64,000 nucleotides of DNA from Cantharellus purpuraceus. Taxonomy: Eukaryota; Basidiomycota; Agaricomycetes; Cantharellales; Hydnaceae. The stretch is from NCBI GenBank assembly GCA_025174535.1, contig JALBUN010000045.1, positions 1,798,001-1,862,000 of the forward strand, given 5' to 3'. Under the pieces are notes generated by a model that saw only the letters and a program-made list of their open reading frames with translations, ran no database searches and was not told the origin of the DNA. Below are positions 31,334 through 57,396 of this stretch, one piece after another (within the stretch, counting starts at the first letter, position 1; every line of letters begins with the position of its first letter). The translations under genes were made by a program, and so were the position numbers.

Positions 31334-31544
31334 GTGAATGATGATGAAAGGATTGGTGTGAATAGAAGGCTGATAATGATCAATGGCGATGAAACACGAG
31401 TGACGATCGATGGCTAGAATTAGAGACTGAGGTGAAGAGGGAGTTGCGGCGCTATTTAAAAGTTTGATACAAAAAGATGCTGGCGGAGTTGGACTGTCAG
31501 AGTGTTTCAATATACGTCCTTGATGTGTCCTGGCTCATCAGCAT

Positions 31545-32935
31545 TCCGTAGGGTTTGTGCCTTTGCAATTTTGAGCGCATACACGTGGTGCAGGAGTTAC
31601 AGTAGTGTTGAATGTATTCTCGCATTTTTGGCCATATGTAATCTCGTCGGATTAATCCTTGTGTGCGATTTTGCCCGAAATGGCCTGAGATCAGGTGATC
31701 ATGGTAATACTGCAGAACTCGGAGTTGGAGACTCTTGGCATTGGGGATGTATATCCGGTTGTTGTGTCGGAGGTGTCCTTTGGGGTCAAGTAACCATTTC
31801 GGATCGGAAGGGTCGTCCAAGTGTTTAACTGCAACAGGATCCAATCGGAGTGATGAGCGGATGTTGGAGTGGAGTTGGTCAATGTCCATAATGGTGACAG
31901 CTCGGAGGGTGGGAGTCATGAGGGTGGATGCTCGTAGGGATGATGCCAGCTGCTTGTTAGTAAACACAGGGCGAAAGTTGTGTGGGTTTACAGTGGCATA
32001 GTTGCTATTCCCCTCTTTAGGGTAGACGTCCCATCATCTAGTTAAAGCATTGGGCTTTGCTCCGAGTCGACCAGGATGGAAATGGATAATGAGATTGAAC
32101 TGAGATGGGTATTCAGACCATCGGACTTGTCTCTGGGTGAGCAGTTTCGTTGTGGAGAAGTATTCCAAGTTCTTGTGGTCAGTTATGACATCCACCGGAT
32201 CGGAGGGACCTTCAAGGTAGTGTCTCCATATCTGGAAGGCTTCATATATGGCAAGGAGCTCTTTGTCATGGACATCATAGTTCAGTTCGGGGGGCGTAAA
32301 TGTACGTGAGTGAAAAGCGATTGGATGGACTTGTCCATTGTCCGGAGAGATGATGGACAGGATCGCAGCAAGTGCATAGTCGGAGGCATCAGTCTCTAAT
32401 AGGATAGGAACGTCTGGAACCCAATGAGTCAGTATCAGAGCAGAAGTAAAGGCCTTTTTCAAGGTCTCAAAGCTCTGTCTACATTCGTCAGTGAAATTCC
32501 ATTGGATACCCTTCCTAGTGAGTCAGGTGAGCAGAACAGTGATATCGGAGTAGCCATGAATGAAGTGGTGGTAGAAGTTGGTGAACCCTAGGAAGGACTG
32601 TATGTCCTTGACTTTCTGGAGTTCTGGCCATTCCTGTATGGCTTTGATTTTGTCATCAGACATTGTCAATCCTGCTGGGGAGAGGATATAGCCTAGGTAT
32701 TTGACCGAGTCGGAGTGGAATTCGCATTTGTCAGCGCGGGCGAAGAGGCCATGTTTTTGGAGACATCAGAGTACCTCTTGGACATGTGTCCGATGTTCTT
32801 CTTTGTTGTCCAAATATACCAAAATGTCATCTAAGTAAACGAGGACAGTCACATCAAGGAGGTCGGCAAAGGTATCATTCATGAACCTCTGGAAGGCAGC
32901 CGGAGCATTGGTTAGTCCGAAGGGCATGATGCACC
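31545..32935 (-). pseudogene. Family B pol fragment (RT to integrase), inverted arm
   Basis: The minus strand is near-identical to 35793-37183 in the adjacent plus-strand B element. Coordinates sum to 68728 throughout, so there is no net indel, and a 142-residue RNase H frame is identical in both. It contains YLDDIL (RT), LETDASDYALAA (RNase H) and the integrase zinc finger. Even the TGA stops are shared. It ends exactly at the first base of the B LTR (32936) on one side and at D sequence near 31545 on the other. Confidence 0.88.
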
Positions 32936-33456
32936 TGTTATGACTATATTCATTAACATCCAGATCCCCATCCGATCCACTCAGATCCCCACGCATATGA
33001 AATCTATACTCCATTTGGAAACCGCCATCTCCATCTACCTGTCCGATTGTCACTGCTGATTCCACCCATCCATCTCCGGTTCCCATTGATGCATCAGCAT
33101 CACCATAGGAACCCAGACATCCGTCCCCATTGGACTCGGACATACTCATGTAAGGTCTTCGGCCTTGGAGACCCATCACCGGAGTAATTATTATTAGATT
33201 TCAAAATATGTATTTAAGTTGCCCAACTGGGGACTTCATTCCCCAGTTCAAATATTGAATCACGCCTAGTTCCTAAGTCTGATCCTAACTCTCTAAGTTA
33301 TACTCCGTCTCTGAAATCTCGGACACCGGTATTAGTGAGGGTGCAGCACATAAGCTGAAGCCATGTCCGTTCCGACCCCCACGACATGCTCCGACTCCGA
33401 CCCAACCTCCAACCTCGATCTCCGACCCAATCTCCAATTGGACCTAGTGTGTAACA
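32936..33456 (+). repeat. 5' LTR of the nearly complete family B element
   Basis: 521 bp, TGTTATG..GTGTAACA. TATTTAAG starts at 33211 and a perfect 8-bp inverted repeat AACTGGGG / CCCCAGTT lies at 33225-33248. It differs from the 3' LTR (40866-41392) at many sites, often CG versus TG/CA, so the insertion is old or strongly mutated. Confidence 0.9.
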
Positions 33457-33470: not shown

Positions 33471-33488
33471 CCATACTCACTCCTACCA

Positions 33489-34631
33489 ATGCCACGATCC
33501 ACTGCCAATTCCAAACATGCACGAACCATCAAGGTGCCCGCTCCCAGCATCGACACCATCCCTGAGGTCATCGAAGAACTGACGGACCACATAGAGGCCG
33601 TCAATGAAGAAGATGACACCCTGCCCTCTCCAAATCTGGCGCAAGCCATCTCCCTGCTCACCAGCAGCATCCGTAACCCACAAGCTCCTAAGTCCCGGAC
33701 CAAGGTCTGAGAACCTGACCCCTTTGATGGCTCCGATCCACAAAAGCTCCAACCGTTCTTGGTGCAATGCCGGTTGAATTTCCGCGACCGCCCCGATGCT
33801 TTCACATCCAATCGGGCAAAGGTCACCTTCACCATGTCCTATCTCAAAGGCACCACACTGGACTACTTTGAGCCAGCGCTCATGGACAACTCCAATGACC
33901 CGATATGGTTGGAGGACTACTCCAACTTCATCTCCGAACTTCAGACCAATTTCAGTCCTTACAACCCCAAGACCAATGCCGAGAATGAACTCGATCGACT
34001 TTGGATGAAGGAAAATCACAAAATCACAAAATACATTGTGAGTTTCCAGCAGCTAGCCCCAAAAGTCCAATGGGGCGACGCTGCACTCTGATGCCAATTT
34101 TACATTGGACTCCCATCCCGCATCAAGGACAAGATATCATGTGTCAGTAAGCTGGATACTTTGGTTAACCTCCGCAAGCTCACCCAATCCATCAACGCCC
34201 GTTATTGGGAACGTCAATCCGAAGTCTCCCATGAAAACTTGGCCAACAACAAATCAGACAAATCATCGGACAAGACCCCAAAGTCCAACAAGGGGTCCGA
34301 TAAGAGGACCACCGCCAACTCAGGCCAGAAGTCAAACACTGGTAATGCTGCTGCTTCCAGTTCCAGTCAGAACAATTCCGGCACCAGCAATAACTCCGGA
34401 GCTCGCAAGAGTACTCCAGACCTCTCCACCAAGCTGGGGAAGGACAGAAAACTTACCCAGCAGGAATGCCAGCGTTGCATGGACAACAACCTCTGTCTGT
34501 TCTGTGGAAAACCTGGCCACCAAGCCAAGGATTGCAACAAGGCAACCTCGTCTGCAGCGAAGGCAAAGGGCCACGCTGCCAATGCCATGACGGACAAGTC
34601 CAACACAAAAGCGACGGACCCAAAAAAATAG
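33489..34631 (+). pseudogene. Family B gag (two nonsense mutations)
   Basis: One reading frame from ATG 33489 to TAG 34629-34631, interrupted only by TGA at 33708 and 34089. At 33708 family C has arginine (KVREPD), so CGA to TGA. It has a capsid region (FEPALMDNSNDP..NENELDRL type), a Ser/Asn-rich linker, and the zinc knuckle [14 protein letters not shown] (about 34495-34536). It ends DPKK directly before the stop, with A7 at 34622-34628. Confidence 0.88.
34622..34628 (+). promoter_or_regulatory. A7 slip site at family B gag/pol junction
   Basis: The gag frame reads CCA AAA AAA TAG: an A-AAA-AAA heptamer immediately before the stop. Slipping back one base gives CCC AAA AAA ATA GTA, which opens the protease frame (GPKKIVSSP). 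Pol stays in this -1 frame to 38311. Confidence 0.6.
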
Positions 34632-37600
34632 TAAGCAGTCCTATAGCCTCTGTACAGGCTGAGGGCTGCATTGGTACTCCCCGTACAACAAATGAGGTCT
34701 GCCTGAACGCATCTGCTCTTTCCCACTCTGACTCCCTTACCCTCCTCGTCTACTCTGACTCCATTCCCGATACCGCTATTCAAGTGTTAATTGACTCCAG
34801 TTCTACTCACTGTTTCCTTGATTCCTCTTTTTCCGATTTACATAAACTCCATACATACACCATAACTCCGATACCACTCCGATTATTTGATGGCACTACT
34901 AATGCTGTTATTTCACAAGCTATAGATCTGTCCATCCGTTTTTTTGTCGGAGAAATCCAGAACCTTACATTCTATGTTACTCCACTTGACTCCAGCTGTT
35001 CTGTGGTTCTTGGACATAACTGGCTCACCTGCTACAATCTGTTGATTGACTGGGCATTGGGCCATATCACATTCCGTTCTCCAGTACAGGCTGTGTCATC
35101 CCCGACGTCACCAGCAACTTTAGGTGTGAAATTATCTTCCGCCTCCGCTGACTCCGCTCCAATAGATACTCCGTCTACCCTGCCATTTATATCACTGGTA
35201 GACACTATGGTCTTCGCCAGACTAAGCAAACTGGATGGTTCTCACACATTCCAGGTCCACCTCTCCGATCCGATATTCCTCGCCGCTTGTTCTGCCTGAT
35301 CAACTCCACCGGACCTCTCTATGGTTCCGAAGGAGTATCATGAGTTTGCTGACGTGTTCAGCAAGTCTAAAGCTGACTCCCTAGTGGAACACTGACCATA
35401 CGATCTCAAGATCGAACTGGATGACAACTCCACCCCTCCGCTTGGCCCTATCTACTCGCTATCCCAAAAAGAGCTACTGGCTCTCCGAACATTCATAGAC
35501 AAGAACTTGGCTACAGGCTTCATCCGCCCATCCCTATCTCCTCATGGAGCTCTGGTCCTATTTGTCTGCAAAAAGGACAGATCACTCCGTCTATGCGTCA
35601 ACTTCTGTGGACTCAACAAGATCACCAAGAAAGACCGATACCCAATACCCCACACCGTGGACCTACTCGAAAGTCCTCGAAAGGCTAAGATCTATTCCAA
35701 AATAGATCTCTGACATGCTTACCATCTAGTCCGCATCCGAGAAGGCGACAAATGGAAAACAACCTTCCGCACATGATATGGATCTTTCGAGTGGTGCGTC
35801 ATGCCCTTCGGACTAACCAATGCTCCGGCTGCCTTCCAGAGGTTCATGAATGATACCTTTGCCGACCTCCTTGATGTGACTGTCCTCGTTTACTTAGATG
35901 ACATTTTGGTATATTTGGACAACAAAGAAGAACATCGGACACATGTCCAAGAGGTACTCTGATGTCTCCAAAAACATGGCCTCTTCGCCCGCGCTGACAA
36001 ATGCGAATTCCACTCCGACTCGGTCAAATACCTAGGCTATATCCTCTCCCCAGCAGGATTGACAATGTCTGATGACAAAATCAAAGCCATACAGGAATGG
36101 CCAGAACTCCAGAAAGTCAAGGACATACAGTCCTTCCTAGGGTTCACCAACTTCTACCACCACTTCATTCATGGCTACTCCGATATCACTGTTCTGCTCA
36201 CCTGACTCACTAGGAAGGGTATCCAATGGAATTTCACTGACGAATGTAGACAGAGCTTTGAGACCTTGAAAAAGGCCTTTACTTCTGCTCTGATACTGAC
36301 TCATTGGGTTCCAGACGTTCCTATCCTATTAGAGACTGATGCCTCCGACTATGCACTTGCTGCGATCCTGTCCATCATCTCTCCGGACAATGGACAAGTC
36401 CATCCAATCGCTTTTCACTCACGTACATTTACGCCCCCCGAACTGAACTATGATGTCCATGACAAAGAGCTCCTTGCCATATATGAAGCCTTCCAGATAT
36501 GGAGACACTACCTTGAAGGTCCCTCCGATCCGGTGGATGTCATAACTGACCACAAGAACTTGGAATACTTCTCCACAACGAAACTGCTCACCCAGAGACA
36601 AGTCCGATGGTCTGAATACCCATCTCAGTTCAATCTCATTATCCATTTCCATCCTGGTCGACTCGGAGCAAAGCCCAATGCTTTAACTAGATGATGGGAC
36701 GTCTACCCTAAAGAGGGGAATAGCAACTATGCCACTGTAAACCCACACAACTTTCGCCCTGTGTTTACTAACAAGCAGCTGGCATCATCCCTACGAGCAT
36801 CCACCCTCATGACTCCCACCCTCCGAGCTGTCACCATTATGGACATTGACCAACTCCACTCCAACATCCGCTCATCACTCCGATTGGATCCTGTTGCAGT
36901 TAAACACTTGGACGACCCTTCCGATCCGAAATGGTTACTTGACCCCAAAGGACACCTCCGACACAACAACCGGATATACATCCCCAATGCCAAGAGTCTC
37001 CAACTCCGAGTTCTGCAGTATTACCATGATCACCTGATCTCAGGCCATTTCGGGCAAAATCGCACACAAGGATTAATCCGACGAGATTACATATGGCCAA
37101 AAATGCGAGAATACATTCAACACTACTGTAACTCCTGCACCACATGTATGCGCTCAAAATCGCAAAGGCACAAACCCTACAGAACACTTAAGCAACTTCT
37201 GGTCCCGGAGCAACCATGGAACTCCATCTCCATGGATTTCATAGAGAAGCTCCCCCCATCGCTCGGATACAACACCATACTCATGATTGTCGACAGGTTC
37301 ACTAAATAGTCACTATTCATTCCGACACATGACACCATCACCTCCGCCTCACTAGCTAAATTGTTCGTTCTCCACGTATTCTCTAAACACAGAGTCCCAT
37401 TGCATGTCACATCCAATCAGGGCTCAGAGTTTGTCTCCTCCTTCTTCCACACACTAGGAAAGGCTCTCAACATGAAACTTCACTTCACCTCCGGATACCA
37501 TCCTGAAGGAGATGGACAAACAGAACGAATGAATCAGTCCCTGGAACAATATCTCCGAGTCTATTGTAACTATCAACAAGACAACTGGGCTGATCTACTT

Positions 37601-38311
37601 CCGATCGCAGAATTTGCCTACAACAACGCTCCAAACGTGACTACTGGCATCTCTCCGTTCTTTGCTAATAAAGGCTATCACCCAAACATCTCCGACCACC
37701 CTGGGAAAGAACTTGCCTCCACCAAAGCCCGCCAATTTGTAACCGACCTTGATCAACTACACCAACATCTCCGAGAAACCATCTCCGAAGCCCAGAAACA
37801 ATATCAAGTCTCCACAGACCAACACCACATTCTGGCTCCAGACCTGCAAATTGGAGACAAAGTATTCATTAAGGCCGATCACTTCCAGACCACCCACCCA
37901 TCAAAGAAACTCTCCGAGAAATACTTAGGTCCTTATGAGGTCATTGCTCGTACAGGCAGCAGGTCCTTCACCCTCCACCTCCCGGACCACTTCCGAGCAG
38001 TTCATCCGGTTTTCCATATATCAATGCTCGAACCCGCTACTATGAACGAGATCTCTGGTCGCATGCAACCTCCACCTCCCCCGATCATCATTGGGGGAGA
38101 CAACGAATATGAGATATCTGAGATCCTGGACTCAAAGATCGACCGTCGATACAAGTACAAGCTCCAGTACTTAGTCAAATGGACTGGATATGAAGGCACC
38201 GATGAAGAGTCTTCATGGATCTCCACGTCTGAACTCGATCATGCATCCGAATCTGTCTCTGACTTTCACTCCACTTATCCAGACAAACATGGCCCCCTTA
38301 TGAATCTTTAA
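34632..38311 (+). pseudogene. Family B pol (protease, RT, RNase H, integrase, chromodomain)
   Basis: The whole 3.7 kb stays in one frame without indels. It is broken only by TGA at 35297, 35393, 35711, 35774, 35960, 36203 and 36692 and TAG at 37307. Protease has [12 protein letters not shown] (34786) and [10 protein letters not shown] has MPFGLTNAP and YLDDILVY (35890); RNase H has LETDASDYALAA (36330) and HDKELLAIYEA; integrase has an H..H..C..C finger (37030-37150), SMDFIEKLP, and TSNQGSEF (catalytic Asp replaced by Asn). A GPY-like segment and a chromodomain follow (YLVKWTGYEGTDEESSW, 38160-38220). Dead by point mutation only. Confidence 0.92.
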
Positions 38312-38465: not shown

Positions 38466-40721
38466 TTATACATTGTGTTTCCTTTTGACCTTCCCCTTAT
38501 CTACCTCAGGCTCCATCTCCGATGCCGTCTCCAACTCATCATCACTCTCTACATCCAACACCCAATCTTTCTCATCCCCCATGTCCGAATCCTCGTCCAA
38601 AGGGGCCATGAACTTCCGCAACCGACGTAACTCAGCTGTCTGACGACCCTCCAGAACCTCCTTCCGTTTCATCATCTTCACCAAGTCCACTAGCAACCCC
38701 TCCATCCGCTGGAGGTGCTCCAACTGCAGGTTAACCAGCTGGATAAGCTGGCCCACGGTACTATTGGGTGCAGAGACGCGCCCTGTACCTGCACCGGTCG
38801 TTGCCCCTTCTGATCCGACACCACTACCCCCAGCTGCCATAGCACCTGTCTCCATCTGCCGCTTTTTGGTCAGACGACCTTCCGATTCTTTCTCTGCCCC
38901 TCCTTGTACCACTAGTTGGGGCTTGACGCTCCGACTCTGGGGATCAAACTTTCCATCGATCCTACACCCTCCTTTCCGACCCTGACAACAATCGCAGGAC
39001 CAAAGGCAGTGAGTTGGGCCGGCAGGCCACATGCACTCCACACCCGCATCATGACACAAGTCGCATGTTACACCAGGCCCGCCAAATGGCTCCGTTGGAG
39101 CCAGAGCCTTGGGTGGTCTGCCCCTTCTTGCTGCGGCCTCCAAATGTTCCCTCTCCTCCTCCTTGTCCTGCTGTTCTGCTGCCGCCTTCTCCATCTCGTG
39201 CTTGCGAAGCTGGATCACTGACCTAGCAACATGCAGCTCCTTCTTACGGGTCACCAACACGTGACTCTCCGCCTTACACCATATGACCCTCCAATCCGCC
39301 TCCCGCTTCTCCGTATCAGCACTCGGGTATGCCTTCAATGAAAAGACCGCGACATCAAGATTCTTCTTGGTGGTAGCAGCATAGAGCTCTGCTCTTTTGC
39401 GGGCCTCGACCACGGCTACCCAAGCCATCTCCTCATAACAATTTGAAGTTGGATCCGGCTCCACATCTGTCCTGACATCCACACCCGCCTCAGGCTCCAC
39501 ATTTGCATCAAGCCCCATATTGGCATCAGGATCCGCCTCCACCTCCGCCCTCTCCACCTCCGCCACTTCATCTTCCTCAGCCGCACCCAACCCAAATAAT
39601 GGCCGTACCCACGGACGTAACGACGAGTCAACCACAGTGACAGTTTTTGGATGAGTTGCCTCCATCCGTGTAATGGAGATGATGGCGACCTCAGGGGTCC
39701 CTGTCCATATTGGCACACTTGGACTTCCTGGGTGGCTGGTTCCCCCTGCCCTGGTCACCTCCTCCTCTACCTCCATGGTGGCTTCTAGCTCGTGCGCCCG
39801 CTCCTCCACTTCCTTCAGTCTTGCAGCCTCCATCGCGGCTGCAAGTTCCTTGACCCTGCAGGCTCTCTCGGCCTTTGCTTCCTCCTCTTTCCTTCTCCAT
39901 TCCATCTCCGCCGCCTCTTTCTGCCTCTGCTCCTCCTCCTCCTTCCGTCTCCATTCTGCCTCCTCCTCCTCCTTCTGTCTCCGTTCCGCCTCCTCCTCCT
40001 CCTTCCGTCTCCGTTCCGCCTCCTCCTCCTCCTTCCATCTCCATTCCTCCTCCTCCTCCTCCTCCTTCCATCTCCATTCCTCCTCCTCCTCCTCCTCCTC
40101 CTCCTCCTCCTCCTTCCATCTCCATTCCTCCTCCTCCTCCTCCTCCTCCTCCTCCTCCTCCTCCTCCTCCTCCTCCTCCTCCTCCTTCCATCTCCATTCC
40201 TCCTCCGCCTCCTCCTTTTCCTCCTCCTCCTCCTCCTCCTCCTCCTCCTCCTCCTCCTCCTCCTCCTCCTCCTCCTCCTCCTCCTCCTCCTCCTCCTCCT
40301 CCTCCTCCTCCTCCTCCTTCCGTCTCCATTCCTCCTCCTCCTCCTTCCGTCTCCATTCCTCCTCCTCCTCCTCCTTCCGTCTCCATTCCTCCTCCTCCTC
40401 CTCCTTCCATCTCCATTCCTCCTCCTCCTCCTCCTTCCATCTCCATTCCTCCTCCTCCTCCTCCTTCCATCTCCATTCCTCCTCCTCCTCCTCCTTCCGT
40501 CTCCATTCCTCCTCCTCCTCCTCCTTCCATCTCCATTCCTCCTCCTCCTCCTCCTTCCATCTCCATTCCTCCTCCTCCTCCTCCTCCTCCTCCTCCTCCT
40601 CCTTCCGTCTCCGTTCTGCTTCCTCCTCCTCTTTCTGTTTCCACTCCTCTTCCTCTTCCTTCCATCGGGCCAAGAGCAACTGCTCAAGCTCAGCCACGCT
40701 CATGCTTGCCAAAGGGTTTGA
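38466..40721 (-). CDS. Antisense Zn2Cys6-type coiled-coil gene of family B
   Basis: One open frame of about 752 residues on the strand opposite to pol, from ATG 40721 (MSNPLASMSVAELEQ) to TAA 38466; it meets pol tail to tail, 154 bp apart. Order: a short helical N-terminus; Glu-rich repeats of WRWKEEEEEE type (about 15-300) encoded by a TCC/GGA tract; a KELAAAMEAARLKE coiled coil; an acidic linker; an AR/EE-rich helix; then CDLC-HDAGVE-C-x12-CDCC-QGRKGG-C, the fungal Zn(II)2Cys6 spacing (C-x2-C-x6-C-x12-C-x2-C-x6-C). A leucine-rich coiled coil (LIQLVNLQLEHLQRMEGLL) and an acidic tail follow. Family C has a homologue at the same place. It has no stop codon, while gag and pol of the same element have ten. 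It may be a DNA-binding regulator; function unknown. Confidence 0.78.
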   Translation of the reverse strand, partial: SNPLASMSVAELEQLLLARWKEEEEEWKQKEEEEAERRRKEEEEEEEEEEEEWRWKEEEEEEWRWKEEEEEEWRRKEEEEEEWRWKEEEEEEWRWKEEEEEEWRWKEEEEEEWRRKEEEEEEWRRKEEEEEWRRKEEEEEEEEEEEEEEEEEEEEEEEEEEEEEEEEEKEEAEEEWRWKEEEEEEEEEEEEEEEEEEEEWRWKEEEEEEEEEEEEWRWKEEEEEEEWRWKEEEEAERRRKEEEEAERRQKEEEEAEWRRKEEEEQRQKEAAEMEWRRKEEEAKAERACRVKELAAAMEAARLKEVEERAHELEATMEVEEEVTRAGGTSHPGSPSVPIWTGTPEVAIISITRMEATHPKTVTVVDSSLRPWVRPLFGLGAAEEDEVAEVERAEVEADPDANMGLDANVEPEAGVDVRTDVEPDPTSNCYEEMAWVAVVEARKRAELYAATTKKNLDVAVFSLKAYPSADTEKREADWRVIWCKAESHVLVTRKKELHVARSVIQLRKHEMEKAAAEQQDKEEEREHLEAAARRGRPPKALAPTEPFGGPGVTCDLCHDAGVECMWPAGPTHCLWSCDCCQGRKGGCRIDGKFDPQSRSVKPQLVVQGGAEKESEGRLTKKRQMETGAMAAGGSGVGSEGATTGAGTGRVSAPNSTVGQLIQLVNLQLEHLQRMEGLLVDLVKMMKRKEVLEGRQTAELRRLRKFMAPLDEDSDMGDEKDWVLDVESDDELETASEMEPEVDKGKVKRKHNV

Positions 40722-40755
40722 CATTCTTGAGGATAAGACCTCAATCATGCCCCTC

Positions 40756-40764
40756 CTTTTATAT
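40756..40764 (-). promoter_or_regulatory. TATA box of the antisense gene, family B
   Basis: The minus strand reads ACATATAAAAGG at 40766-40755, about 35-40 nt upstream of ATG 40721 and inside the element, about 100 bp from the 3' LTR. This suggests independent transcription toward the element interior. The longer frame from ATG 40805 would begin upstream of this box, so I chose 40721. Confidence 0.55.
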
Positions 40765-40851
40765 GTCTCCAGACCCCCAGTATAACTCCAACTATGCCCA
40801 ACCATCTCACCTATTCAATCCACGGACATGAGGCCTCAGGGGCTCAGCCTT

Positions 40852-40865: not shown

Positions 40866-41392
40866 TGTTATGACTATATTCATTAACATCCAGATCCCCA
40901 TCCGATCCACTCAGATCCCCACGCATATGAAATCTATACTCCATTTGGAAACCGCCATCTCCATCTACCTGTCTGATTGTCACCCCCGATTCTGCCCATC
41001 CCTCTCCAGTTCTGATTGATGCATCAGCATCACCATAGGAACCCGGACATCCGTCCCCATTGGACTCGGACATACTCATGTAAGGCCATCGGCCTCGGAG
41101 ACCCATCACTGGAGTAATTATTACCAGACTTCAAAATATGTATTTAAGTTGCCCAACTGGGGACTTCATTCCCCAGTTCAAATATTGAATCACACCTAGT
41201 TCCTAAGTCTGATCCTAACTCTCTAAGTCGTACTCCATCTCTGAAATCTCAGACACCGGTATTAGTGAGGGCGCAGCACATAAGCTGAAGCCAAGTCCAT
41301 TCCGACCCCCACAACATGCTCCAACTCCAACTCAACCTCCGACCTGACCTCCAACCCAATCTCCGACCCCCAATCAGACCTAGTGCGTAACA
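40866..41392 (+). repeat. 3' LTR of the nearly complete family B element
   Basis: 527 bp, TGTTATG..GCGTAACA, homologous along its length to 32936-33456. Flanking pentamers (GCACC before the 5' LTR, CAGTT after this one) do not match, so the right flank has been rearranged. Confidence 0.9.
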
Positions 41393-41670
41393 CAGTTTCC
41401 AAATGGAGTATAGATTTCATGTGCGTGGGGATCTGAGTGGATCAGATGATCTGGACGTTAATGAATATAGTCATAACAGTATCTCTCCATTTAAGGCCGA
41501 GCCCGGTACTACCCCTTGACCTGACAATTCTTTGGCATGCTGAATGACAGTGTTAAACACCATCTGTTTGCTAGGACCATTGTGCACAGGCTTATAGGTA
41601 CTATTCCATAAGCAAACTGACAATGGGTTAATCGGACAGGGATCTGAGTGTTAATGAATATAGCCATAAC
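41393..41670 (-). repeat. Mosaic of LTR fragments at the edge of the repeat block
   Basis: 41393-41478 is the first ~85 bp of a B LTR on the minus strand, followed by its polypurine region (41479-41500). 41505-41625 resembles the end of the D LTR (CTTATAGGTACTATTCC). 41630-41670 is again the B LTR terminus (GAATATAGCCATAACA). No repeat is recognised beyond about 41700. Confidence 0.65.
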
Positions 41671-42005: not shown

Positions 42006-44753
42006 ATGGTTGTTGCCTCAAGCGTCCTTGGTTTTCCTCGCATCGGTCTGTTTCATCTCTACTCCATGTGTCTCACCACTGACCCAACTCCCCTCCAAGG
42101 TGCGAACCGTGAAATCAAAAAGGCTGTTGAGGCGTACTGGGCAGGGAAGATCTCCAGTAACGAGTTGGCCAAGGCATCTGCGGATGTCAAGAAGACAAGC
42201 TGGTCCACTGTCAAAGAGAGAGGTGTAACCTTCATTCCCAGGTATTTTTTCCTGCTGCGCCTCTGAGATTTGGGATCAAGCATCATTGTCATTTCAGTGG
42301 AGAGTTTTCTTTGTACGACCATGTCTTGGATCACTCTACTACTTTCAATGTCATCCCTTCTCGGTACACCGGTCATGGTCTCTCTGATCTGGATATCTAC
42401 TTTGCTATGGGTCGTGGCAGACAAGCAGACGGTGTGGATGTCCCTGCATCCGAAATGAAGAAGTGGTAGGTATTTTTACTAATTATTCTATTTCTACTCA
42501 GATTTTATATAATTCAGGTTTGACTCAAACTACCACTACGTTGTTCCGGAACTTTCCGACGCCGTTGACTTCAAGCTTACTTTCAACAAGGCCCTTGCAG
42601 AGTACACGGAGGCCAAGAAAGCCGGGTTTGAGACTCGCCCCGTCATTCTTGGACCTATTTCGTATCTTGTCTTGGGTAAGGCCGCCAGGGACGCCCCCAT
42701 AGGCTTCCAGACCATATCCCTCCTTTCGCGGCTTCTTCCTCTCTATGTCCAGCTTTTATCCCAACTCAAGCAGGCCGGTATCGAATGGGTCCAGGTCGAT
42801 GAGCCCATTCTCGTCCTCGACTCTGCAGTGAACTACCAGACACAATTCACTGATGCTTACACGGAGCTCGAGAAGGTTGCTCCTAAGATTATGCTTACCA
42901 CGTACTTTGGCCGCCTTGACAGCAACCTTACGTTTGTCGCCAAGCTTCCGGTTGCTGGCCTCCACATTGACCTCGATCGCGAGCCTCGACAGCTCGATTC
43001 CGTCGTTGCGGCTGCCAAGCCGACAAGCATCGTCCTGTCCCTTGGTCTTGTATCTGGTCGTAACATTTGGAAAACAGACTTGTCAACAGCCATTGCCCTT
43101 GCTCAAAAAGCGATTGATGCACTTGGCGCTGACCGTGTTATCATCGCGACGTCTTCCTCTCTTCTTCACACCCCTGTGACCCTGTCCTCGGAGACTCAAC
43201 TCACACCTCAGCAGAAGGATTGGTTCTCTTTTGCTCTCGAGAAAGCTGGTGAGGTGGCCACTATCGCTTCGGTTCTGTCCGGGTCACAGGATAGCAGCGT
43301 GTCTGCAGCGCTCGAGGCAAACAAGGTCTCAATTGCCAAGCGTCGCGAATTTGAGAGGAGCTCGGATGACGCTGTCCGGAAGCGTGTTGCTGCAATCACC
43401 CCAGACATGCTTCACCGCAAGAGCCCCTTCCCTGTTCGTCGTGAGGCTCAGAAGAAGTATTTGAACCTACCCAAGTTCCCAACTACCACCATTGGTTCCT
43501 TCCCTGTATGTTCTGCACATTCGTATATGACTGGCATTAACAAAACTATATTTCTTCGCATAGCAAACCAAGGAAATTCGTGCCGTTCGTGCCAAGCTCA
43601 CAAAGGGTCAAGTCACAGAGGCTGAGTATGAAGAGTTCATTAAAAAGGAGATCGAGATGGTGGTTCGCTTCCAAGAGAAGGTTGAATTGGATCTGTTCGT
43701 GCATGGCGAACCGGAACGCAACGATATGGTCCAATACTTTGGTGAGCGCCTCAATGGGTTTGTCTTCACCCAGAACGCGTGGGTGCAAAGCTATGGCAGT
43801 CGGTTCGTGATCATTTACCATCGCTGAGGTTGGAGACTTGATACTTGTCTTTTGCTAGTTACGTTCGTCCCCCTATCATCGTGTCTGACGTCAGTCGCCC
43901 TGGACCTATGACTGTCAAGTGGAGTAGCTATGCACAGAGCCTTACAAAGAAACCCATGAAGGGTATGCTTACTGGACCTGTTACCATTCTGAACTGGTCT
44001 TTCCCTCGCGTCGACGTTTCACGAGAAATTCAGTCCAAACAACTGGCCTTGGCACTGCGTGATGAAGTCATTGACCTTGAGAAGGCGGGAATCCAGGCTA
44101 TTCAGGTCGATGAGCCTGCTATTCGTGAAGGAGTGCGTCTCAGCCTCTATATTTCGACTGCAGATAATTAATACTTTTCTCTTCATCCATAGTTGCCTCT
44201 TCGTCGTGTCGATTGGGATAACTACCTCACCTGGGCTGTGGATTCGTTCAAGCTTGCCACTGCTGGTGTCACCGACTCCTTGCAAACTCACTCCCACTTT
44301 TGCTACTCGGATTTCAATGATATTTTCCCCTCGATCCAACGTCTCGATGCCGACGTCATCTCCATTGAAGCCTCTAAGAGTGATCTGAAGCTTCTGAGCG
44401 CGTTCAAGCAATTTGGCTATTCCAATGAGATTGGCCCGGGTGTCTACGATATTCACTCCCCTCGCGTGCCATCCGAGCAAGAAATCAAGGATCGCATCAA
44501 GGCGTTGCTAGAACTGGTCCCTGACCACCTTCTTGTCATCAACCCTGTAAGTTCATACTATTAGTAGTGGACACTTACTGTAAGGAAGCTGACGGTTGTT
44601 CAGGACTGTGGTCTCAAGACCCGTGGCTGGAAAGAGACCGAAGGTTTGTGGTTCACTAGTAACTTACTTTATTGACTTGTTTGACGCTCTATCTCAGCCT
44701 CGTTATCAAACCTGACCAAGGCAGCGAAATGGGCTCGTGTCACCTACGCCTGA
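42006..44753 (+). CDS. MET6: Cobalamin-independent methionine synthase
   Basis: Transfers a methyl group from 5-methyltetrahydropteroyl-triglutamate to homocysteine, the last step of methionine synthesis, in the cytosol. Nine exons: 42006-42045, 42100-42241, 42298-42465, 42518-43505, 43564-43802, 43859-44132, 44193-44546, 44604-44643, 44698-44753. Together they give an in-frame 766-residue protein, the usual fungal length. The N-terminus VLGFPRIG and NREIKKA and the C-terminal catalytic barrel are clear. Zinc ligands are visible: His and Cys in SHFCYSD, Glu in SIEAS, Cys in DCGLKTRGW. All introns are GT..AG, 45-60 nt. It appears intact and borders the retrotransposon block. Confidence 0.97.
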
Positions 44754-50500: not shown

Positions 50501-53500
50501 TCTTCCGGAAGTTTTATATCTGTCGGCATGTCGTAAATACCTTCTGAAACTTTCTGACCGCTTTCTTCCGTGTTTGCCGATTGTGCGCGTAGACTAGCTA
50601 GATGTTGAGTGTATCTCTCCAATAACGCTATCATCTGTGTGATACTCGTTCCTCTTGCTTCCTAGCCCGTAATATTACTGTCATGCAAACCACAAACATA
50701 CAAGAGCCTACTTTACTTCGTCCCTTAGCAGTCTGTTGGCTTGGATCGTAGTAGGATACATTGTTGTTATTAGCCTTGTGCGCCATCTGAGCATTCGTCA
50801 GTGTGGCACGCAGTTCGGCCAGCCGCTTTGCACCGAACTCAAGCTGGACCTCGTGAGCACCTGAGAGCTGAAGTCAAATTATGAACAATGTGAAAAAAAT
50901 TTACGACCCACTGGGTTCTTTGCCCATCAGACACACGTGGGTCTCTTCGTCCCCAAACTTCGTTTGGGATCGCCCGGTACCACGTCCTTCTTGGGAAGAG
51001 CCTGTCCAAGGGGCGCGTTTGAAATATACGAACCGCGGGCAATGGGCTGCCTCATGAAGATATAAGTTTGGCTTATCGGTAGGGAGCCAGTCAACTTCCA
51101 TGAAGTCGTCTATATCTACCCAAGTGGAAAACAACGGAGTTGGGTCCAAATACTCCCAAAACCTTGTCATACTTGGTAGCGATTCCTTTAATGGGAATGA
51201 TTTCTTCTCGGGCTCAGCAAAGACAGCAAAGAGAGCTCGCAAGTCAATACCAGTGATCACAACGTCAATAGCACTGAATGGTTTGTGTCTAATGACTTTC
51301 GGCTCGGATCCTTCTCGCTGTTTTACCGACGTTTCTTCCTCCCGCTGGTGCATGTCAGCTTGGAAGTGCTCAAGAAATGCTTTGACCTGTTCGTTCATCC
51401 TATCAGCAGTGGATCAAGCCATTATACGTGACGAGCTCACCCCGACGCAATGCGTTTCACCTGCACCCCAAGAATCCCCACTGTCGATCTTGTACACATG
51501 GGCAATGTAAAGAGACGAGAATGTGATTCGATATTTGATGGTGGCTAAATGTCGACCAAATTTCATTGACGGAGGGCGTGAATCGGGAAAAAGATTCCCT
51601 TGGCGAATAGGCAACGATAAAGCACTGTCAAATAGATGCCACCAAGACCAAAAGTGTGCAAATGTCTTGGGAGTAAGGTGAAAGCTGTTATGTCTTTCAC
51701 CATCACCTGGGTTGAGCGGTGAAGTGAGAGATGTTGAAAAATGTATGAAATTAGATCGAAATCCAGCGTATGAATCGTTGATCGCCTATGGAAATATATC
51801 AGTAAACTCAGAGCAATGTGCAATGTGACTCTTGAAAGCAGACCTGCTGGCTGCCACCGGTCGAGTGTAGCATAACCTCATAGTGTGGCACGAAGGTGAA
51901 GAATCGACACTTGCGACTGAAAGTATCACCGCTGCATTTATTGCATTCAGAACCGCAAGTGCGTTCCAAAGTCAATCCAATCCCCCAGCGTATACCATTG
52001 CCGAACTTTGCGCATATCTTCCTATCATTCTTATTTGTTTGAACCGAGGAGGGATTCCCATATGCCAACGATGAGAGAGGTAAGTCGAGAATTGCGACAC
52101 TCTCATTAGCAGTTTTATGACTTGCAATCAAGTTCTGATTCAATCAAACTGAAGGAGGGATGACGAATCGGGACATACTCCGGAATTGTTATCACCATTG
52201 TGTTTGAACTGAGTTGAATCAGCTCGTTTTCGTTATTTTCATGTCCTACAATGATGGCGACATTGCCGTCCCAACGGAAATCAAAGCCTGCCCCAGTACC
52301 GACGATATGATAAGGGTCACGGGACCCTATTGAACTGGTCAGAAACATAGCATGTTACAAGCTAGTACGATGTACCTTTGAAATGCAAGTGAGCACCTCC
52401 TTGGAATGTGGCATTGATCCGCCAATGAAAAACAAGGCGAAGTTTATCCTGTGGCTTAGCTAGATCATAATCATTTCATCCAAAGGCTCGTGAACATACC
52501 CAAAATCCAATGGCGGGAGAAGGATCACGAGCAGGGTGGGTCAATGTTTCTATCTGAAACTCGTGTCTGTAGACATGGTTTGGTGCGCGAAAGAACTGAG
52601 TGTGCTTACAACACGCATTATTTCTTGGATGGCGGGATTGTAGGACACCCCCCAAGTAAACTCGGTGACAGATTTGGTACGAAAACTGACGTTGGGGTTT
52701 GCGTAACTCTTCACTGGCATGATGGTCTTGGGAACCTGAAGAACAAATGGGCGCGCGCCAATAATCCCAGCATTGTGTGGAACAATAGGACATTGGAACC
52801 ATTCGACCGAATCCGAGGGGCCGACTTCTTCCGCAATTATTAGATCCATTACAAATTCTACACTGGGACCGTCAGCGTGAAATGGGACGTTAACAAGTGG
52901 GAGAGGATAGTCTCTGATATTCATCATTGCATCGCCAAGACTGCACCTCAGATGCATAGGTAATAGCAGCGTGTATTCCGTCGACAGAGGCATACTTCCA
53001 AGCTCTGCTAGAAAGCCCTGGTAACCTGCAGGGAAACACGGTGGGGTGAGTGAGATAGAGAGTTCATTGACTACTGCACGGAACAGAGGCGGTGCCTTCT
53101 CTGCAGTGTGAACAGAGATGGGTATTGGAACATGATACCCATTAGTGTTCATGGCATGGCGAAGTTGTCTTAATATTGTATCCTCCTTTCTTCCGATTTC
53201 TGTCTTCTGATGCGAAATGGAACTAATCCAACTACTAGAATGTACCATGTTGAGTCGGGCGCGGGCATCAGCCAAGGAAGTTGTCCGTTTTGAGGTAAAA
53301 CGATAACGGAGGTCAGATGGTGCGGAATCCAAGGAAACTTGAGAATCACCGGAAGCCAAGATGGCGCGAAGCTTGGCTTCAAAAGCAAGTTCTCGTTCTG
53401 TTCGTATTTTCTGTGCTTGGAAACCTGCTCTCCAAATGAGCCCCAGCTTAGCTTCAAATGGGCTATCTGCAGCTTCCAATGTAGTAGAACGTATGAAGAT

Positions 53501-56500
53501 ATCCAAGTCAAGTAGATTCTTAGGCGCCTCTCCCCAGGCTGGTTCCAGAGGAATAAAGTACCCGAGCGGTACTATGCAATACAGGTGTCGGAGAGTCTTC
53601 ATAGCGACATTCACGTCCAAAATTAGCCTTGAAAGAACATAACCGTGAGGGATCGCAATTCGGAATCCCTCGGCTGACACTGCTACTTTGACTCTGGGCG
53701 ACTTGCAAGTCACAGTGACACTGGCACCATACAGGCGAGACAACTCCTCCCATTTGCCTTCAACGTGAGGGCTCAACACCCACGTCGCAAGAGAATTGCA
53801 TTCCATCTTGAAGGGGATGTCGGGACCCTTTTCCAAAGTCACCGAGAGCAGCCGAATGAACAGCTGCTCATATAACGGCAGGTGACAGAAAATATGTACA
53901 TTGGCCAACCGTAGTCTAAACGTGGTTCGGATGCTTGCGGATTCATGCACGCCACGAGGATCAGAATGGCGACGGCGAGGAGCAAACAGCTGCAAGGTAT
54001 GTGATGCAAGAAGGACAGAGTAGAGATTGTGAAGATCCAAGCGACTGCGAATGTGAGGTATATTCAGGGAAACCTCACATGTATTTTGGATCGGCATGTC
54101 CATCACGGGAACGGACTGTCTCTGGCCACGTAGCCGGGCCGTCGTGAACGTCCGTGGCATAAAAATAAAGTGGTCTTCGTCCTCTCCTCGCTTTGCTCCA
54201 TGACGTGCACCGTATTCGTATCGGGTAGACGTAATATTACGACAGGTCGATTGCCATGTTACGCTTTGAAAAAGAGCCGAAAGTTCTGGAGGACCCGACT
54301 CTCTGTGAGCTAGGGGTGCATGGGTCCGAAGGTCGTCTAAAAGGCCGAGTTGCTTGCGACCCTGGTCATAAGCATAAAGTGGTCCAGAAAGTGGTCTTGG
54401 ACGCTGAGCATGGCATTTCGGCATGTAACAGCATTGTATGGAGACACCCGTGCAAACTTCGAGGCCCCTAGACAATTCAAGGCCACAGAGTGGGTTTATA
54501 TCGGGACCTGTGACAGCGCAACTTAACCTCCCGATTCCAAGGTGAATGGATACCCCAGGGAAAAGGCCGTCTAGTATTGTGGACGTTGAAGCAGCTTGCT
54601 TGATGTTCCTTTGCTGCTGGACCACATCAGCAAATATGAGCATTGTAGCAATGGTTTCGCTTTTCCATAATTCAAGCGACAAATCGTCGAAAATCCACCT
54701 GACATCCAGCACAGAATCGAAAGGTTCCAGAATGACAGTATCATTGTGGCCTGTATGACCAGGGGTGGTGCAAGTCATCGAAAGCTCCATCCCATCTACG
54801 CCAAAGAACGGATCAGGCCATGAGCTCTCGTCCCATTCATAACCGGTGTTATCTTTGACCTCGTGTGTCAATCCTGCTCGGACAAACGTGGGATGGAAGA
54901 ATGTGTAACATGTAGTGTTCATATGAACGTCTCCACGATGAGAATTAAGGGACATTTCCCAGACTGCTTTCGGAATTTGCGTAGAAAATGTAGTACTCAA
55001 ATTGGCATGGAAACCTGGGTTATGAAGAACAAGCATTGAAGTAGCGTGTGCAGATCCTGTGTCACAGGCCGTGAGACAGACCCGAACGTCGTTGCACCCA
55101 ACTAGAAGTTCAAGACGAGGGAAGTTCGATAACTTCCTGGGAATTAATTCGAAAGAAGGAGAGCGGGTCCGTTTCTTCGGTATGACCGAATCAATATCCG
55201 TTCGAAGCTCCTCGGCTCGTTCAGTCACGTGCAACCCGATAAAAGATAATTCGCAGGCCACAAAAGGGCCATTCAGATCTCCAGATAAAATTCGAGGTGC
55301 TGTGGACGGCGTCATCGGCCACTGGTAAGCAAGAAGGTTCATTTCCAATTGATGTAAGGCCAGCAGACGAATAGGTGCCTTCATAACAGGGAGGCGGCTG
55401 ACTGTCGCGAGACCTGTCTTCCAGACAAGACTATATACCGATCCATACAGTGGTGAATGACTGCCAGATCCCAGCCACTTGCGATGCAACTGATTCGTCC
55501 TGGGGTTGCTGAGGCTCAGACGAAGGTCAACACTCTCAACTGTATAGAGATAATTGTGTCCATTGGGGGTGGGCAGCTCGGAAGCCGGACTGTGGACGAC
55601 ATTGATACAAGGGAAGCAAACTGCAATGGACTTTATTGCTGTGGCAAAAGGCTGTAGGATTGTTATGAAACGGAAACTGCCAAGAGGCGAACTGGCACCA
55701 TACCTGAATCTTCGGCTCTGTGAGGCGGTGGACAGAAGGGGCCGGTGAAGAGATGGAGCCATGTTTTCTTGTCTAATTCGAATTGAGATTATATGCACAC
55801 AGATAAGTAGTTTCATGGGTACACATACCATCTGAGAGAATGTGGTTATAAAGCGAGGCGACGTCGGAGAAACATGAGAAATCAAAGTCGGTGGCATACC
55901 AATCGGTGACGATACACGCGAAACTGCGGAAGACGACAAGGGCCCTGTATTCCTTGTTTGCTCTTCCTGCGAGTTGTCTGCTGAAGTAAGATCAAGAAGT
56001 GACTGGATCTGGTCTGCCGAGGCATCGATTGTAGGGATATCTAATGAACAGTCTAAGCTATGCTGTTGCAATACCAAGAGTTTCGGGCTAAATTGTGTTG
56101 ATGCCAGAATGCGGGGGGAAGCAATACGGAGAAATACATCAGGTGGAAGTTGAAAATCGGGGCCAGAGCTGATGCTCGATGAATTAAGCCATTTGTCCTC
56201 TTGATAGGACTGACAAGAGAACGAGACTGGGGACGTGAGACGCGTGCAGCCTACAATTTCACGAACGGTGACATGGACGGCCGCAAAACCCTCTGTTTGA
56301 CCCCAAACGCGTTCCCAAAAGCGGTCCGCACCACTCCGTATCACAGTGTTCCAATGCAGCGACAGACGTTTTCTCTCTGCAGACTTTTTCGACTCCGAAC
56401 TCAATGGTTCAGCGTCCTTTCCCATCTGAGAAAACTCGACTTTTGTACCGAGTGTGACACCGCGAAATCGAACCTGAGCGCCCGACAATGTTGCAAATGA

Positions 56501-57109
56501 TATAACCACCGAATCGATTTCGAAATCCAGATGCTGAGTGAGGGACGGCAGGCACCGAATGAATAATTGAGCCGCAAGAATAAAACTGGAAGAGAATGCT
56601 GTTCGTAACAACATGAATGGTGAACTCGTCAATAACCCGCCCCACAGCCATTCCAGTGACACGAGGGCCTCCCGAAAGATTGTAAAAGGAACCATTACAC
56701 GGTGCATCACAGCCAGTTGATGCAGTGGTTGGTGGCGTCGAATAGATGTCCGAGGCTTAGCAATATCGAGCTGTAATCCTTCAACTCTGACTGACAAACG
56801 ACTTGGACTCTCCCCCCAAGGATGAAATGACCAGCCAATACGATCCACTTTCCAGGTGCGCCCTGCATTATGAAAGTATAGACCTTTGATAGATCGAATG
56901 CTGATGCTACGGGCACGGATGCGCTGTGTTATCCTTGCTAGGAGGAAGGGTGCGATATTTCGACGGAATACCACTAGGACAACGATGGCCCTGATTACGA
57001 GAGTGATCCATGCCGCCCAACCAGTAAGACTGGGTGGATTGAATACCAATGCCTTCCCAATACGACTAGTAACATGCCAGGCGTCGATGAAAAGCTGCAA
57101 CGGCAGCAT
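47540..57109 (-). CDS. FMP27: FMP27 / BLTP2-like bridge lipid-transfer protein
   Basis: A giant multi-exon gene (estimated over 2,500 residues) from ATG 57109 to TGA 47540. The N-terminus has a membrane anchor (AWITLVIRAIVVLVVF) and SIKGLYFHN..TWKVDRIGWSFHPW, typical of this family. A 4.5-kb first exon block (52610-57109) is open; 55766-55826 is probably an in-frame intron (GTATGT..ACAAG). After the intron 52609 to about 52550 comes the signature GFWDKLRLVFHW, then GSRDPYHIVGTGAGF, FHLTPKTFAHFWSWWHLFDSALSLPIRQG, KFGRHLATIKYRI and a C-terminal YFGVSEYSHRNFQFEELINQFIPSD. Yeast Fmp27/Ypr117w and human KIAA0100 form hydrophobic tubes at ER-plasma membrane contacts. I annotate one gene although exon ends in 47540-52300 are not all resolved. 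Confidence 0.9.
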
Positions 57110-57396
57110 GAAATAAGTCAAGAACCCAGGGTTCGCAGGATGCAGTGACTAAGCAAATGCAAATACGGTACTCAGACGTGACGTTGTTGAACATGTCACA
57201 CTGATACATAGGTCACGTCAGTGCTGTGGGTTTTTCTCGTGAGCAGTTGCAATACTGCACTACACGATAAGTAAAAATAAATAAGGAAAATGCCTTTGAT
57301 GGAAGCGGTAACGAAAGCCTGATGCATACATAGTTCAAACATCAAGCTCGCTGGGTTGCTACATGAGATAGAAAGTACTGTAGCTCCGACGTGGAC
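57110..57396. other. Intergenic region upstream of the FMP27-like gene
   Basis: 287 bp between the FMP27-like start and the DPB2 stop, both on the minus strand. It must hold the FMP27-like promoter; no clear TATA box or repeat stands out. Confidence 0.5.

Follow-up and report, generated by a model that had tools for sequence, protein, structure and literature searches.

An antisense gene with a six-cysteine array between pol and the 3' LTR of a chromovirus family in Cantharellus purpuraceus

Antisense genes between pol and the 3' long terminal repeat (LTR) have been described in several reverse-transcribing elements. Passages of PMC7264820 describe antisense open reading frames (aORFs) at this place in Grande, RIRE2, Retand and PvRetro13, and list Boty of Botrytis; the same passages give the Grande antisense protein as nuclear, with a promoter upstream, and state the functions of plant antisense genes beside the 3' LTR as unknown. 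In an excerpt of PMC11963269, 97% of Retand clusters bear the antisense TRP28 gene, the product of which is probably DNA-binding, and HBZ is mentioned. The HBZ gene of HTLV-1 is placed under antisense promoters within the 3' LTR in a section of PMC10186651, and PMC8365987, in the portion concerned, cites Zhao et al. 2011, the title of which reports an antisense gene, brtn, in Boty-like elements. Here we describe an antisense gene for a six-cysteine protein in a Ty3/gypsy element of Cantharellus purpuraceus, found in a window of 64,000 nucleotides (contig JALBUN010000045.1, positions 1,798,001 to 1,862,000). The first-pass annotation of the window had known of no described system of this kind, which has to be corrected: since plants (excerpts of PMC7264820 and PMC11963269) and Boty (brtn, as cited in the portions of PMC8365987 and PMC7264820 concerned) have antisense genes there, the arrangement is already known. 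Searches of an open-licence library listed no LTR element with an antisense gene for a zinc-cluster protein, and the six-cysteine antisense protein itself appears to be new.

On the sequence evidence, the antisense frame is a real accessory gene of the element family, because shared substitutions show a synonymous excess, the six cysteines are kept in every aligned copy and the array recurs in nearly all distant relatives that cover it. The product is most likely, as judged from its motifs, a zinc-binding, coiled-coil nuclear regulator. For the complete proposal, a true antisense accessory gene driven by its TATA box and encoding a nuclear six-cysteine protein that acts as a regulator on the element's own DNA, we see about an even chance. 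The element is laid out as follows.

32936..33456, plus strand: 5' LTR, starting TGTTATGAC and ending GTAACA
33480..34631, plus strand: gag zone in frame 0, with two internal stops and a CCHC zinc knuckle near the end (start approximate; CCHC recognised by eye from the translation)
34466..38311, plus strand: pol in frame 2, with 8 internal stops and SH3_Tf2-1 and chromodomain at the end
38466..40724, minus strand: antisense gene, 752 codons and stop, one open frame
39855..40664, minus strand: E-rich GGA/GAG repeat, residues 21-290, varying among copies and open in several frames
38466..39860, minus strand: non-repeat part, used for the selection test, with predicted helices, cysteine array, C-terminal predicted helix and acidic tail
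38964..39065, minus strand: six-cysteine array C-x2-C-x6-C-x12-C-x2-C-x6-C
40756..40763, minus strand: TATA box TATAAAAG of the antisense gene, with TATAAAAGGAGGG kept in 24/25 aligned rows
40866..41392, plus strand: 3' LTR, starting ~100 bp upstream of the antisense TATA box

The SH3_Tf2-1 domain and the chromodomain (PF00385, E 7e-08, 32.7 bits against a cut-off of 25.1) that close pol identify the element as a Ty3/gypsy chromovirus. Its LTR pair is 93.2% identical over 501 columns and has the ends TGTTA...TAACA. The antisense frame runs on the minus strand from the ATG at 40724 to the stop at 38466 (752 amino acids), flanked by the chromodomain end of pol on one side and the 3' LTR on the other, and the pol stop (38309-38311) and the antisense stop (38466) are convergent with a gap of ~154 bp. 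Both the frame of about 752 residues and the ten internal stops in gag and pol of the same element (2 in gag frame 0 and 8 in pol frame 2) were present as first annotated.

The length and openness of this frame require caution. Residues 21-290 of the protein are 64% glutamate and are encoded by the GGA/GAG repeat, which makes up over a third of the antisense frame and is open in several frames on both strands. The raw length of the frame thus overstates the case, and only the 464 non-repeat codons carry evidence. There are 236 glutamates in the frame of the window copy compared to 18 to 145 in the other rows, some of which are shortened by stops. When the genome (40.15 Mb, 50 contigs) was searched, the gene was found at a minimum of 113 places (113 of 708 candidates scored), at 64 of which the matched stretch was stop-free; 7 of 22 rows were open all the way from the MSNPLA start to the end of the array. 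Stops numbered 27 in the 19208 codons of the 42 antisense copies, compared to 72 in the 12427 codons of the 24 pol pieces; TGA made up 66 of the 72 pol stops. CGA codons averaged 0.8 per antisense copy and 7.6 per pol piece. As CpG decay makes TGA from CGA, and CGA is scarce in the antisense frame, the contrast between the intact antisense frame and the broken gag and pol, to which attention had first been drawn, is real but mostly mutational in cause. Openness by itself was rejected as evidence, since the repeat is open in several frames and stop density matches CGA content. These same observations, the openness of the repeat and the rarer stops expected from low CGA content, are those that would favour a chance or decay artefact, i.e. 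a frame left open by a purine repeat and few stop-prone codons. For the non-repeat part this explanation is refuted by the shared substitutions, discordant sites, cysteine conservation and distant relatives given below, and we consider it hardly credible.

Coding constraint was assessed in an alignment of 42 copies of the non-repeat part, consisting of 40 long matches and two copies within fetched loci, with a duplicate and six pieces of shorter length excluded. The rows are partly non-independent, as L021 and L027 have common flanks and the pairs L015/L019 and L018/L023 resemble duplicated stretches. Each variable column was classified and compared to an expectation in which the same trinucleotide changes were placed randomly in the same frame. 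Non-CpG changes present in at least 4 of the 42 copies were synonymous in 71 cases (30.7 expected), missense in 25 (62.9) and stops in 1 (3.4), giving a crude omega of 0.17; the synonymous excess has a binomial p of 6e-17 when columns are treated as independent. A ratio of non-synonymous to synonymous rates (dN/dS) near 1 in family alignments had been named beforehand as the result that would speak against the gene, and the value came out otherwise. For pol in its own frame the same class of changes gave an omega of 0.06 (38 synonymous, 4 missense). The synonymous excess in shared non-CpG changes indicates that the gene was under purifying selection while the family multiplied. By region, the predicted coiled coil had 11 synonymous changes to 1 non-synonymous change in at least 4 copies, the helical part 14 to 3 and the surroundings of the array 9 to 2, where changes in at least 2 copies were 14 to 9; residues 61-144 (non-repeat numbering) had 16 to 13 in at least 4 copies.

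Four other frames of the region gave omega values of 2.45, 3.62, 3.17 and 3.45, and the remaining sense frame, which has third positions in common with the antisense frame, gave 0.31 and contains 8 stops in the window copy. At discordant sites, changes silent in the antisense frame stood to those silent in the sense frame as 15 to 4 when present in at least 4 copies (p 0.019), 8 to 5 in 2-3 copies and 10 to 17 in single copies. A sense-strand gene over the same bases was rejected on the first two of these ratios and because the sense frames of the window copy contain 10, 8 and 14 stops, respectively; the single-copy ratio runs the other way.

Two classes of changes weigh against a gene under selection. 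Single-copy changes showed weak constraint, with an omega of 0.64 in both the antisense frame and pol (0.64 and 0.58, respectively, outside CpG). CpG-type changes in at least 4 copies, obtained by subtracting the non-CpG rows from all rows, showed no constraint in the antisense frame, with 107 synonymous changes (104.2 expected) and 179 missense changes (181.9 expected). We read the single-copy changes as a mixture leaning to decay after insertion, and the shared CpG-type changes as recurrent decay of inserted copies.

CpG-type decay is found family-wide, both in the antisense region (38466-39860) and in pol (36266-38308): TGA predominates among the pol stops, and many CpG columns of the copies are mixed. 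The decay suggests that cytosine methylation or a process resembling repeat-induced point mutation (RIP) has acted in this genome. VANC proteins counter silencing for VANDAL transposons in Arabidopsis, and on this model the antisense protein could be an anti-silencing or chromatin factor, which would bind element chromatin and counter cytosine methylation or repeat-induced silencing instead of being a classical promoter regulator. The heavy CpG decay (neutral-looking shared CpG-type changes; 66/72 pol stops TGA) suggests methylation pressure of the kind such a factor would meet, and the element already has a chromodomain. The decay suggests, however, that silencing occurred, not that this protein opposes it, and of the members of the antisense protein that were scanned, none reached a Pfam family. 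We regard an anti-silencing role as rather improbable.

The six-cysteine array was found, with the spacing C-x2-C-x6-C-x12-C-x2-C-x6-C given in the first-pass annotation, at residues 554-587 (window 39065-38964). With its spacing ranges the pattern occurs once in the window and in 0 of 20 mononucleotide-shuffled windows. All six cysteines are kept in 42/42 genomic copies. The five other cysteine positions comprise one that is invariant (195), three that are variable and one at the cut edge. Cysteine invariance is nevertheless partly background, which tells against its use as evidence for the array: 194 of the 464 residues are invariant in the 42 copies anyway, and the relatives therefore weigh more than the copies.

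Relatives were obtained from metagenomes. A protein search with the repeat-bearing protein gave no relative, a second protein search gave one, P0002 (39% identity, E 9e-47), and a profile of the copies and P0002 gave 15, P0002 included, at 34-54% identity. All are proteins on JGI contigs of 1.2 to 3.8 kb, named hypothetical save for two automatic names (SlyX-like coiled coil; aspartate beta-hydroxylase). Scans of viral and of bacterial/archaeal contigs gave no relative. The exact array is kept in 11 of the 12 relatives covering the region (P0002-P0010, P0012 and P0013), P0011 being without the first cysteine. In the 13-sequence alignment A5 the 18 invariant columns comprise the six cysteines and further residues including W, G, K, I and G inside the array or immediately following it; as this alignment was restricted to array-keeping members, the invariance of the cysteines in it is by choice. 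The N-terminus MSxxxxxMSxAxxExLL is common to P0005, P0006, P0014 and P0015, and P0012 is close to it. Some relatives have a shorter charged E/K/R/D stretch in place of the glutamate repeat of the window family.

Position and promoter were checked in 20 fetched 10-kb loci with 23 antisense rows, one place being counted twice (L018, L026); 19 copies fetched without flanks fall outside this check. An LTR was on the expected side and in the expected orientation in 23/23 rows, and the same was true of the chromodomain end in 21/23. The gene has its own TATA box, as first annotated: TATAAAAG at 40763-40756, which together with the following bases (TATAAAAGGAGGG) is conserved in 24/25 aligned rows (one place twice). 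With this box ~100 bp from the 3' LTR start, the LTR would be a natural upstream control region, and transcription would proceed leftward from the TATA promoter. The putative transcript would overlap ~2.3 kb of the sense RNA, as calculated from the coordinates, and it is conceivable that function lies at the level of RNA, with the antisense transcript forming double-stranded RNA with genomic RNA and limiting copy number while the frame is incidental. As a sole function this is contradicted by the codon constraint, the retention of the six cysteines in 42/42 copies and amino-acid conservation at 34-54% identity, and we judge it very unlikely, though such an effect could coexist with a protein.

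The PF00172 (Zn_clus) domain is fungal, and the Zn2Cys6 spacing C-x2-C-x6-C-x5-12-C-x2-C-x6-8-C fits the array in 42/42 copies and in 11 of the 12 covering relatives. Zn_clus profile matches over the cut-off were obtained at 32 places in this genome and in 0 of 14 control genomes, in line with a fungal host. Several results weigh against the array being a cluster of this type. The PF00172 cut-off was reached by none of 17 scanned array-bearing proteins or pieces, three of which scored below it (best 14.1 bits against 21, E 0.052). A whole-genome PF00172 search gave 42 hits, none of them, by eye, at the listed places of the antisense gene. The predicted local confidence (pLDDT) of AlphaFold at the array was about 37-40 in a 276-residue model and 52-60 in a smaller model that was low throughout, and Foldseek with the smaller model found nothing in PDB below E 3. 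In residue shuffles the normal-order score of P0006 was matched by 270 of 2000, i.e. there is no resemblance beyond chance, and the genomic copy L016 resembles host clusters in swapped order alone (matched by 23 of 2000).

The swapped order came from separate scoring of the two array halves against 26 half-clusters taken from host factors (20 fetched stretches). In the window family the second half resembles host first halves in 42/42 copies and the first half resembles host second halves in 32/42; for one copy, 4 of 5000 label shuffles were as extreme. A permuted zinc cluster with swapped halves, suggested by these results, was rejected, as P0002 contradicts the swapped order and the normal order scored higher in 8 of 11 relatives, the swapped order being favoured in three (P0007, P0008 and P0013). 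The spacing fits, but the profile cut-off is missed and the resemblance to host halves is not consistent, and the protein may therefore work like a zinc-cluster regulator without membership in the family being claimed. The Gal4-type cluster of the first-pass annotation thus stands as to spacing; membership was not established, given the missed PF00172 cut-off and the low-confidence array models.

Since the array has, apart from spacing, no consistent resemblance to PF00172 or to the host zinc clusters, it could also be a zinc-binding or interaction module for protein contacts (dimer or partner) and not for DNA binding. The DNA-contacting halves of zinc clusters are basic, and the second half of the array is basic in the relatives P0005, P0006 and P0009 (CDRCRSRKAGC), which speaks against such a module, as does a helix predicted ~65 residues downstream of the array, a helix after the cluster being a feature of Gal4-type proteins. 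We consider the protein-contact module unlikely.

AlphaFold, applied to a 276-residue piece without the E-rich stretch, predicted mostly confident helices at residues 2-102 and 224-274 of that piece, with low confidence between them. Coiled coils on both sides of the array had been proposed, and the long helices agree with this for the piece modelled, which does not cover the E-rich stretch. Of two PDB sequence searches, one gave a best E of 1.7 and the other a best E of 0.1, for a GCN4-fused coiled coil. Downstream of the array there is a basic patch, TKKRQ in the window copy and PAKRRR in P0004-P0006, and 17 of the 35 residues of the C-terminal tail are acidic. An AT-hook (GRP before the array) was also considered and rejected, as it is present in 14/42 copies and absent in P0002. 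The layout would thus be a charged E/K/R stretch, a helical region, a putative six-cysteine zinc cluster, the basic patch, a C-terminal helix that is probably a dimerising coiled coil, and the acidic tail.

The charged stretch, the basic patch and the predicted C-terminal helix would also suit an integration or nuclear-import cofactor, travelling with the complementary DNA (cDNA) and aiding nuclear entry or target choice, and passages of PMC7264820 discuss such a role for nuclear plant aORF proteins. However, a protein made from a separate antisense messenger RNA would have no obvious route into particles, and the integrase chromodomain could already do the targeting; we find this role quite unlikely. 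In the regulator proposal, the protein would instead enter the nucleus and act on element DNA, at the LTR promoter or on its silencing state, as a transcription or chromatin regulator. What the first-pass annotation had claimed, that the element carries its own putative DNA-binding regulator, holds as far as an element gene with coding constraint (0.17), a TATA box and a kept array are concerned, but DNA binding, Gal4 identity and a regulated target were not established.

Zn2Cys6 factors usually have CCG/CGG triplets as half-sites. Such triplets were counted among the CpG sites that at least 30% of copies have, with 32 LTR copies. They made up 29 of 36 CpG sites in the LTR, compared to 75 of 124 in the gene and 73 of 129 in pol (Fisher p 0.011 for the LTR against the latter two combined, 148/253). 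Without a 12-bp tandem array in the LTR the excess was marginal (p 0.051), which weakens the LTR as a target, and we take the excess as a hint only. A more specific and tentative version of the regulator proposal, on balance doubtful, is that a fungal chromovirus lineage has its own antisense zinc-cluster factor, with a cluster Gal4-related or convergent, which would bind CGG/CCG in the LTR and control or protect the family, as a feedback regulator common to elements of several uncultured fungi.

An inverted copy of the window element's own pol (31544-32935 against 35793-37184) adjoins the 5' LTR. The two match at 1388 of 1392 bases, although the difference between the LTRs is 6.8% and that of other copies ~8-10%, which would point to a recent conversion or rearrangement or to an artefact of assembly. 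Immediately past the 3' LTR, at 41395-41504, there is an inverted fragment made up of the LTR start and neighbouring internal bases. No target-site duplication was found at the window element, while 5-bp duplications are present in L021 (CTAAT) and L014 (CACAG). Adjoining the element, at 42513-44564, is a gene that by eye, from translations, resembles cobalamin-independent methionine synthase, in several frames, and an open stretch of 1532 codons lies on the minus strand at 52550-57148.

Compared to known systems, the locus is similar in arrangement to the plant aORF-3R genes (maize Grande gene23, rice RIRE2, Silene Retand), which, in the passages of PMC7264820 and PMC11963269 concerned, also run antisense in the interval from pol to the 3' LTR and are there in most copies of the plant elements. 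According to the same passages, Grande has its own upstream promoter and a nuclear protein, while for Retand DNA binding is predicted (TRP28, PF04195) and this region likewise has tandem repeats. Unlike these, the present protein reaches no Pfam family, PF04195 included, and has a six-cysteine array, in a chromodomain element of a fungal-looking genome. Boty with brtn, compared by citation only (the portions of PMC8365987 and PMC7264820 concerned), is likewise fungal and is listed with the elements that have an antisense gene at this place. With Gal4-type PF00172 factors the protein has in common the cysteine spacing, a predicted helix after the cluster and an acidic tail, but it misses the PF00172 cut-off, has ~65 residues from cluster to helix and is encoded by a retrotransposon. 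In a host that looks fungal, the family provides a case with codon-level constraint, a conserved motif of metal-binding type and a concrete, testable candidate target, the LTR. HBZ belongs to the bZIP proteins, and like it the present protein would be an antisense regulator encoded beside the 3' LTR of a reverse-transcribing element; unlike HBZ, it has no Pfam bZIP match, and its TATA box lies outside the LTR, in the internal region at a distance of ~100 bp. Should the protein control the LTR of its own element, HBZ-like antisense regulators would have evolved in retrotransposons independently of retroviruses.

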